From positions 186,001 to 250,000 of the forward strand of contig NZ_FNZK01000003.1 in assembly GCF_900109225.1 (NCBI RefSeq): DNA of 64,000 nucleotides, written 5' to 3'. A program made the translations under genes and the position numbers. The stretch is from Propionispira arboris (GTDB lineage Bacteria > Bacillota > Negativicutes > Selenomonadales > Selenomonadaceae). The notes beneath the pieces were generated by a model. It made no database searches. It worked only from the letters and a program-made list of their open reading frames with translations, and was not told the DNA's origin. Below, one piece after another: positions 74-42,957 of this stretch (position 1 is the stretch's first letter; each line of letters opens with the position of its first letter).

Positions 74-245
74 TAACGGTGTTGCTGAACAGGCAGGTCT
101 CCTGGCTAAAATCATTATGCTTCAAATCCTTCCCAAGGAAAATTCCTCAGTGGTATTTATCAAAGCACTCCTTAATACAGTGGCGGGACCGCACCAGTAT
201 CACACTGGATTTCCCTATTAAGTAAAAATACACCTGTTCCATTAT
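74..245 (-). promoter_or_regulatory. Cobalamin (B12) riboswitch
   Basis: Read on the minus strand, this segment carries the conserved cobalamin-aptamer blocks in order: a GGGAAATCC-like block with an adjoining small hairpin (about 203-216), the GGTGCGGTCCCGCCACTG core (about 178-196), and AGCCAGGAGACCTGCCTG (about 89-106), ending in CAGCAACACCG. These are the signature elements of the family. The element points left, so the gene it controls lies beyond base 1. The 1-313 stretch holds no gene of its own. Between the aptamer and the edge there is a perfect 8-bp hairpin (51-70) without a T-run, and a CC-rich segment at 25-32 that could pair with the aptamer core. Confidence 0.93.
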
Positions 246-313
246 TATTCAATATTTTTAAATTACGAACCCAATACTTATTTATTCCCTGTAAAGGACA
301 TAAATCCTGCTTT

Positions 314-21674: not shown

Positions 21675-21790
21675 CTGACACTCTCATCTTATAGGCTTCG
21701 CCTACAGGATTTGGCACCGTTTTGATAAAATCAAATGGTTGCCGCAGTTTCATCGGGCCATTCCCTCCACTACTCTTGATGAGTTCCATA
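21675..21790 (-). promoter_or_regulatory. SAM-I (S-box) riboswitch upstream of metK
   Basis: The minus strand reads the S-box consensus: CTCATCAAGAGTAGTGGAGGGA, then GGCCCGATGAAACTGCGGCAACC, GGTGCCAAATCC, and a closing AAGATGAG. The P1 helix pairs CTCATC (21778-21783) with GATGAG (21684-21690). SAM binding should stabilise P1, free the terminator and stop metK transcription. Confidence 0.97.
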
Positions 21791-25220: not shown

Positions 25221-25282
25221 ATATATAAGTTGCATTAAATATTCTATGTGGTACTCGTCAATAAGGGGGGATAGGCAATACA
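25221..25282 (-). repeat. Truncated copy C of the ~150-bp palindromic repeat
   Basis: Shares with copies A and B (41982 and 42784) the ordered blocks ATATAAGTTGC, TTAAATATT, a variable TATGTGGTA-type segment, CGTCA and GGGG-ATAGG, then stops at the dapF stop codon. Only the gene-proximal 60 bp are present. Read on the minus strand it contains TTGACG-N16-TTTAAT. It separates dapF (ends 25283) from yicC (starts 25092). Confidence 0.7.
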
Positions 25283-26125
25283 TTATACGGAATATATGCC
25301 AGAGAATACTTTTTCAGCAGGACCTGACATATACACGGTACCCGCTTGAGTCCATTCTACAAAAAGGAGCCCTCCATCGAGTTCAATTTCTACATTTCTA
25401 TCCGTTTTGTGATTGAGCACGGCTGCCACGATCGTAGCACAAGATCCCGTTCCACACGCTAATGTAATCGCTGCCCCACGTTCCCAAACACGCATTCGAA
25501 TATGTCCGCGATCTTTTACTTCAGCAAATTCTGTATTTATTTTTTTAGGAAAATGTTCATTGATTTCAAATAAAGGACCTACTTTTTCCAAATTAATTTG
25601 TGCAATATCGTCGACAAAAACCACACAATGTGGATTGCCCATCGAAACACAGGTCATTTTATATTCCTTATCTAATATTGTAATCGGTTGTGCAATAACC
25701 TGTTCACTGCCAAAACCAGCAACAGGAATCTTATCAGCTGCTAAAATCGGCTCTCCCATGTCAACACGAATTAAATCAACGGTATTTTCTGCAGTCAAAA
25801 TAATTTCCGGTTTTATAATACCAGCGCCCGTTTCAACGGTAAATAAAGTTTTTGTCGTAAGTTTTGCTTCATAAATATAACGAGCAAAACAACGAATTCC
25901 GTTGCCGCACATTTCAGCCTCACTGCCATCCGTATTAAAAATACGCATTTTAAAATCTGCATGATCCGAAGGCATCACTAAAATCAACCCATCCGCACCA
26001 ATTCCATAATGACGATCACAAACTGTAATTGCCAAATTCGAAAAATCATCGATCTGTTCTTTAAAACAATCTACAATAACAAAATCATTGCCGCAGCCTT
26101 GCCATTTGCTAAATTTGAAATTCAT
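25283..26125 (-). CDS. dapF: Diaminopimelate epimerase
   Basis: Interconverts LL- and meso-diaminopimelate for lysine and peptidoglycan. About 280 residues. Both catalytic cysteines are visible, in EMCGNGIRC near 71-79 and LACGTGSCAT near 220-229, along with GCGNDFV at the N-terminus and MGNPHCV near 150. The ATG at 26125 was chosen because GGAGG lies eight bases upstream; two earlier in-frame starts are too close to it. Single gene, with a divergent promoter region on its 5' side. Confidence 0.97.
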   Translation of the reverse strand: MNFKFSKWQGCGNDFVIVDCFKEQIDDFSNLAITVCDRHYGIGADGLILVMPSDHADFKMRIFNTDGSEAEMCGNGIRCFARYIYEAKLTTKTLFTVETGAGIIKPEIILTAENTVDLIRVDMGEPILAADKIPVAGFGSEQVIAQPITILDKEYKMTCVSMGNPHCVVFVDDIAQINLEKVGPLFEINEHFPKKINTEFAEVKDRGHIRMRVWERGAAITLACGTGSCATIVAAVLNHKTDRNVEIELDGGLLFVEWTQAGTVYMSGPAEKVFSGIYSV

Positions 26126-41981: not shown

Positions 41982-42129
41982 CTATATAAGCTGCATTAAA
42001 TATTTTATATAGCAATCGTCAGGAATGGGGTATAGGGTCGTGGCATTGCGTAGAAAGCAAACGATGCCCTATATCCCATTTCTGGCAGCCTGACAGGCTA
42101 GATGCAATTTTTTTATGCATTCTATAAGA
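41982..42129 (-). repeat. Copy A of the ~150-bp palindromic repeat
   Basis: Near-identical in layout to copy B at 42784-42933 and in the same orientation. Plus strand: ATATAAGCTGC, TTAAATATTTTATAT, GCAATCGTCA, then a long imperfect hairpin (AGGAATGGGGTATAGGG at 42021-42037 against CCCTATATCCCATTTCTGG at 42067-42085, with the smaller GGGTCGT/ACGATGCCC inside), then AGCCTGACAGGCT and GATGCAATT..TTATGCAT. On the minus strand it holds CTGACG-N16-TTTAAT, 30-60 bp before the ftsK start. No ORF of its own. Confidence 0.85.
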
Positions 42130-42136
42130 AGCTCGA

Positions 42137-42748
42137 TCATGAACTTTCCAAAGCGGCTTTTGCTAATTTGTCTGCTAATTCATTACCTTCAATTCCGGTA
42201 TGACCACTGATTTTTCGAAATGTTACCCAGCCAAGATAATCTGCCATAAAAGCTGCATACTGTTTTGTAACATCATTATTCGTTTTCCAGCGTCTTTCAG
42301 CCCACTCCGAGATACCAATATAATCATGATAGATGACAATTGATTCTAATTTTTCTTTTTCTGCCCATAAAACAGCTTGTATACTCGCTTCGACTTCACC
42401 AGCAACGTTATGAAGTTTTGCAGCTGAGATAGAAGTTCCCAGCCCGTTTGCTGTATGAATCAACTGCCCCTGAAAAAAAACGGCAAATCCCCAACTATAA
42501 CGGTTATTACGATAAGACCCATCGACATAGATATGATGTTTTTCTTTAAGTTCATTCACAGTGACTTTAGACGGCGGAACAAGGGTTAATTTAGTACCCA
42601 TATAATTTTGCGCTTCATCCATTGTAGCAAAACCTTTATACAACGCACCAGAATAACTATGGATTTGCTCTTTACATTCTAGCCAAGATGAAAAAATTCC
42701 AGTTTTGCGACCATTTTTAACAGCATAATATTTTTTCTTTTCTGGCAT
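42137..42748 (-). CDS. Ribonuclease H with N-terminal hybrid-binding domain
   Basis: Cleaves the RNA strand of RNA-DNA hybrids. About 203 residues in two parts: a eukaryote-like hybrid-binding (Cauli_VI/viroplasmin) domain (1-48; YYAVKNGRKTGIFSSWLECKEQI...GFATMDEAQNYM) and an RNase H fold (about 65-200) with HIYVDGSYRNN (first Asp), EVEAS (Glu), YHDYIG (Asp) and the C-terminal HTGIEGNELAD. ATG at 42748 chosen for AGGAG eight bases upstream; the open frame reaches into repeat B. Flanked on both sides by direct copies of the repeat and transcribed alone. Confidence 0.92.
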   Translation of the reverse strand: MPEKKKYYAVKNGRKTGIFSSWLECKEQIHSYSGALYKGFATMDEAQNYMGTKLTLVPPSKVTVNELKEKHHIYVDGSYRNNRYSWGFAVFFQGQLIHTANGLGTSISAAKLHNVAGEVEASIQAVLWAEKEKLESIVIYHDYIGISEWAERRWKTNNDVTKQYAAFMADYLGWVTFRKISGHTGIEGNELADKLAKAALESS

Positions 42749-42783
42749 AGTATACACTCCTAACCGGAAAATCTTCCGACAAA

Positions 42784-42933
42784 CTATATAAGTTGCTTTA
42801 AATATTTTATATGGCAATCGTCAAAGTGGGGTATAGGGCTTCGTGGCGTTACGTAGGAAGCAAACGACCCTTATACCTACCCTATTCTTGGCAACCTAAT
42901 AGCTAGATGCAATTTCTTTTATGCAACTTATAT
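42784..42933 (-). repeat. Copy B of the ~150-bp palindromic repeat
   Basis: Best-preserved copy. Ends form a perfect 11-bp terminal inverted repeat: ATATAAGTTGC at 42786-42796 and GCAACTTATAT at 42923-42933. Interior hairpin GGGGTATAGGG.../...CCCTTATACC with GGGCTTCGTGG..AACGACCC, and GATGCAATTTCTTTTATGCAAC at the far end. Read on the minus strand it contains TTGACG-N16-TTTAAA about 35-70 bp before the RNase H ATG. No coding capacity or transposase. Confidence 0.85.
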
Positions 42934-42957
42934 GAATGCACTGCATTTATCGAATGA

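Follow-up and report, generated by a model that had tools for sequence, protein, structure and literature searches.

The window analysed, 64,000 nucleotides of the Propionispira arboris genome (C34:186001-250000; NZ_FNZK01000003.1), contains an RNase H gene, rnhA, placed between two palindromic repeats, here called copies A and B, which lie in direct orientation 802 bp apart (Table 1). This arrangement had been reported in a preliminary description, in which both the coordinates and the block order were right. The same description assigned two domains to the RNase H, one of them of eukaryote type. Two domains were indeed recovered with Pfam, Cauli_VI (8e-21) and RNase_H (1e-11), but the former is the standard N-terminal domain of RNase H1 and the protein is an ordinary RNase H1. 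The open reading frames of ftsK and rnhA had been given starts inside the repeats; these are probably mechanical artefacts, and rnhA probably starts at the ATG at 42748.

Table 1. Positions of the features in the window; the minus strand given for copies A and B follows the orientation of covariance model R1.
Feature	Position	Strand	Details
Cobalamin riboswitch	75..252	-	
SAM riboswitch	21681..21785	-	
Third copy	25222..25296	-	truncated, single terminal repeat
Copy A	41983..42128	-	left TA 41983-41984; body 41985-42126; right duplication position 42127-42128, now AG
Hairpin core of A	42018..42088 (bounds approximate)		GTCAGGAATGGGGTATAGGG ... CCCTATATCCCATTTCTGGC
rnhA	42137..42748	-	RNase H1: Cauli_VI + RNase_H; intact in both species
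Copy B	42785..42934	-	left TA 42785-42786; body 42787-42932; right duplication position 42933-42934, now TG
Hairpin core of B	42819..42894 (bounds approximate)		3' arm with a small rearrangement, giving a distorted stem

By blastn, A and B (~147-150 bp each) were 80% identical, with a longest common exact tract of 15 bp. Copy B has the terminal inverted repeats (TIRs) TATAAGTTGC/GCAACTTATA, in which the 11-bp match described earlier as perfect (ATATAAGTTGC/GCAACTTATAT) was exact and lies within a 17-nt arm of 88% complementarity; the ends of copy A are degenerate. The plus strand of copy A was predicted to fold as RNA at -55.6 kcal/mol (z -5.7). No open reading frame of at least 60 aa was confined to A or B, and the search of both copies for promoters and terminators gave nothing above shuffled sequences.

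Copies and ends of the element family

When copy B was compared with its own genome by blastn, as the preliminary description had proposed, 40 places were found at E <= 1e-21, revealing many further copies and a resemblance between A and B far beyond chance. A covariance model was derived from 26 copies; it gave 121 rows in the P. arboris genome (4.26 Mb), corresponding to ~105 distinct places once 16 reverse-strand duplicates had been removed, and ~95 places in P. raffinosivorans DSM 20765 (including contig NZ_KB905853.1). None of the 85 copies that could be placed against a codon-usage gene call lay inside a gene.

The element is ~147 bp long and its ends, in inverted orientation, consist of TATA, a variable stretch of 4-6 nt and GCATTAAA, with the consensus TATATA-NNNN-GCATTAAA and TIRs of ~18 bp; TATATANNNNGCATTAAA was present at both termini of many copies. 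The end pattern TATATA...GCATTAAA gave 155 matches versus 5 for the reversed control, and the isolated TIR matches examined were truncated halves, among the matches listed (the first 100 of 155). The consensus hairpin has an 18-bp stem (CAGGAATGGGGTATAGGG / CCCTATACCCCATTCCTG) and a conserved apex, ATCGTTTGCTTCCTACGTAACGCCAC.

Occupied and empty sites in the sister species

The rnhA region of P. raffinosivorans has flanks 98% identical to those of P. arboris, and both A and B are absent from it. At site B, the empty allele AAAAAC-TA-GATGCAC corresponds to the occupied allele CAAAC-TA-[TATAAGTTGC...GCAACTTATA]-TG-AATGCAC, and at site A, TTAAC-TA-AAATTTAGATCATG corresponds to TCAAC-TA-[TATAAG...TTCTATA]-AG-AAGCTCGATCATG, the empty-site junctions in P. 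raffinosivorans being AAC-TA-GATGCAC (B) and AAC-TA-AAATTT (A). These paired alleles show that the target is TA and that TA is duplicated, so both the target-site duplication and the empty sites that had been suggested as a check were found. The right-hand TA duplications of A and B decayed after insertion.

To these two sites were added others occupied in P. arboris, giving 20 sites compared in syntenic stretches and at the rnhA locus. The two genomes share the element at 14 of these positions; the remaining six, which comprise A, B and four more, lack it in P. raffinosivorans, and at two of the six the exact number of TA is ambiguous. No site occupied solely in P. raffinosivorans was found in the compared stretches. 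Besides these 20, the copy at C28:10379 and that at C16:10442 of P. raffinosivorans share the same site and flanks with the element in opposite orientations.

Being short (within the 70-300 bp usual for MITEs) and non-coding, with TIRs, a TA duplication with empty sites and dispersed copies, A, B and their kin have the features by which MITEs are recognised, which bears out the earlier remark that they resemble miniature transposable elements and encode no transposase. It is very probable that they belong to a ~147-bp non-autonomous MITE that inserts at TA in intergenic regions, is moved in trans and evolves via its palindrome. Such an element would insert at intergenic TA dinucleotides and duplicate the TA; the enzyme working on its terminal repeats in trans would be a DDE-type transposase, putatively Tc1/mariner-IS630-like. 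After insertion, changes in the stem would be compensated through the palindromic structure, the hairpin could be lost through deletions that join short direct repeats located at its foot, and some copies would be rewritten to perfect palindromes and one flipped in place, presumably by hairpin-driven replication slippage or template switching. At the rnhA locus the element would have no host function. Against this reading stands that no transposase with these ends was found among the families tried, including the IS630-type DDE_3 genes looked for in four carrier genomes; an autonomous relative with the same ends is common for MITEs, although it is not required for the name.

The age of the insertions is less straightforward. 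Divergence is 3.9% between orthologous copies and 2.3% between the sequences flanking them, and the nearest other copy in either genome is ~87% identical for A and ~85-87% for B. Among the six copies present only in P. arboris, five have no paralogue above ~89%, the exception being C22:27474 (95%). Since no pair of non-orthologous copies exceeded ~97% identity in the sampled set, nothing indicates that the element still moves. The divergence of A and B would place them before the separation of the two species, but the corresponding sites of P. raffinosivorans are clean. This could be explained by precise loss, by an allele without the copies having replaced the region, or by the donor copies having disappeared.

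Changes in the palindrome and a possible hairpin function

The stem changes in a paired manner. In 99 distinct copies, 86 cells with two-sided changes were counted, whereas shuffles gave 21 and slid controls no more than 29; a compensated stem was also seen between orthologues, where GAATGGGG...CCCCATTC at C23:142192 became GAATTGGG...CCCAATTC in P. raffinosivorans. At C28:26266, whose site is empty in the sister species, the right half repeats the left one in reverse complement, as in a fold-back rewrite. The hairpin is deleted from many derivatives, 65-115 bp long, in which both ends persist; several of these are joined at TGCC, a direct repeat present on each side of the hairpin. Such patterns are compatible with template switching and slipped-strand deletion at the hairpin, the putative mechanism of these changes.

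Five derivatives of ~74 bp share an identical TGCC junction; either the deletion recurred or the class is a sub-family with an independent spread.

With ~100 copies, and with sites that can be compared in the occupied, empty, flipped or eroded state, the two sister genomes constitute a natural experiment, and they can be used to study the decay, inversion and scarless disappearance of palindromic mobile elements.

Alternatively, the element could be chiefly a structured RNA or a protein-binding hairpin with a host function in mRNA processing or stability, a role that has been proposed for ERIC and Correia, its spread being secondary. The strong covariation of the stem would agree with this, but paired changes could also be produced by palindrome-templated repair, and the stem mismatches counted on the modelled strand were 68 A-C and 40 G-T, with no strand consistently favoured. 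As G-U-type mismatches favour neither strand, covariation alone does not prove an RNA. A weak orientation bias relative to flanking tandem genes was detected (33 same, 18 opposite, p = 0.049), as was a possible 5-bp pseudoknot (AUCGU/ACGAU), whose helix is conserved and shows one clear two-sided change between orthologues, from ATCGT/ACGAT at C22:45624 to ATCAT/ATGAT at C2:107282 of P. raffinosivorans; this helix, however, is backed by just three two-sided cells. The sister species is empty at six of the 20 sites, and Rfam at permissive thresholds returned nothing relevant to the element. A primary host function of this kind is unlikely.

The distribution outside Propionispira bears on the same question. 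A class-wide covariance search found matches in 10 of 300 genomes and four of 98 genera, with 1-8 matches per genome in other families, where several copies lie at apparently orthologous places between species, as judged by shared flanking sequence. In these low-copy loci, sequence is retained far better in the apex ATCGYTTGCTTCCTACGTAACGCC and in the 3' foot GACGATTGCC than at the termini, and the terminal repeats are mostly degenerate. Conservation across families that peaks at the apex rather than at the TIRs is unusual for a MITE and counts against that reading; the conserved apex is also the sole feature that could raise the interest of the element. One might speculate, with little confidence, that function resides in the apex and foot, as a structured RNA or as a hairpin bound by a nuclease or transposase, possibly pseudoknotted. 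This hairpin would predate the TIRs, having been captured between TA-targeting ends and amplified in Propionispira while a few fixed loci persisted elsewhere in the class. The core pattern was found only in its own genome in a sample of 398 genomes of the phylum, and was absent from viral contigs; plasmids and phages gave no match to the element, nor did blastn of the core against 5,426 complete genomes of E. coli, a species whose genomes carry ERIC.

Relation to known elements and to rnhA

Considered as a MITE, the element is most readily compared with three known families. Correia elements of Neisseria (CREE/NEMIS) are alike in length (105-155 bp), in their copy number (>100), mostly intergenic location and length classes, in having TIRs of ~24-26 bp with TA at the ends and a TA target, and in their presence or absence among strains, a reported inversion and a transposase that has not been identified (PMC2649163, PMC2229807, PMC10969869). 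Compared by description, they share no known sequence with the present element, which has a Negativicutes host, Propionispira, and a long central hairpin that covaries and whose apex is conserved, and which is not known to carry an IHF site or a promoter. The ERIC (IRU/RU-1) elements of enterobacteria are likewise intergenic palindromes, of 127 bp, with TA ends, a long stem-loop and no identified transposase (PMC2229807), but they belong to another host phylum, the TIRs in Propionispira are longer, and the core gave no blastn match in E. coli. RUP of Streptococcus pneumoniae (107 bp, ~108 copies, non-coding, TA target; PMC2229807) was likewise compared by description and differs in having a candidate helper, IS630-Spn1, whereas no IS630-type DDE_3 gene was found in the four carrier genomes here. 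Because its match to Correia, ERIC and RUP is one of features rather than of demonstrated sequence homology, and because literature searches returned no published account of such a family, the element is filed as a family of its own within a known kind; it seems to be hitherto undescribed and apparently adds a TA-targeting MITE family to the Negativicutes, for which the literature searched held no earlier report.

The hairpin also recalls the CGTC-tagged REPs, palindromes with CGTC at the foot and no associated transposase (PMC3733652), from which it differs in its much greater length, its TIRs and TA duplication, and its lack of head-to-head dimers. Membership of that class (a 20-40 bp palindrome with an 8-9 bp stem, a CGTC tag and a CCA-type tail) was considered and rejected, the present stem being of 18 bp within a 147-bp element with TIRs. 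A related proposal, that a REP-like palindrome with CGTC at its foot is mobilised by a Y1/RAYT transposase, could draw on the conservation of CAATCGTCAG at the hairpin foot and on the Y1 transposase genes present in both Propionispira genomes. However, a TA duplication and ~18-bp TIRs are foreign to REPs and the hairpin far exceeds the 8-9 bp stems of the CGTC REPs (PMC3733652). Moreover, among the Y1 loci scanned, only that at C14:50399 and its P. raffinosivorans orthologue lay near an element, which is truncated, single and confined to one side, making mobilisation of this sort highly improbable.

As for the MITE copies around rnhA, the preliminary description had supposed a special link with this gene, which recombination between A and B would delete. 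Neither an allele without rnhA nor a product of A-B recombination was found in the two Propionispira genomes compared, and an exact tract of at most 15 bp is short for RecA-dependent recombination. With ~105 copies in 4.26 Mb, about two pairs of neighbours within 802 bp are expected by chance (105 x 105 x 802 / 4.26e6) and three were observed, namely A-B, C27:149463/149954 and C28:107120/107617. Because the close relative has rnhA without either copy, the bracketing is due to chance and rnhA is a bystander; the supposed link is not supported. That A and B form a composite cassette bracketing this one gene for its movement or deletion, as their direct orientation and 802-bp spacing around a single gene might suggest, is scarcely credible, given that rnhA holds the same position in the sister species with both copies absent, that the copies are only 80% alike and that neither deletion nor movement of the gene was seen. 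Nothing unusual about the RNase H gene follows from the element copies around it. Elsewhere in the window, both riboswitches listed in Table 1 are ordinary.
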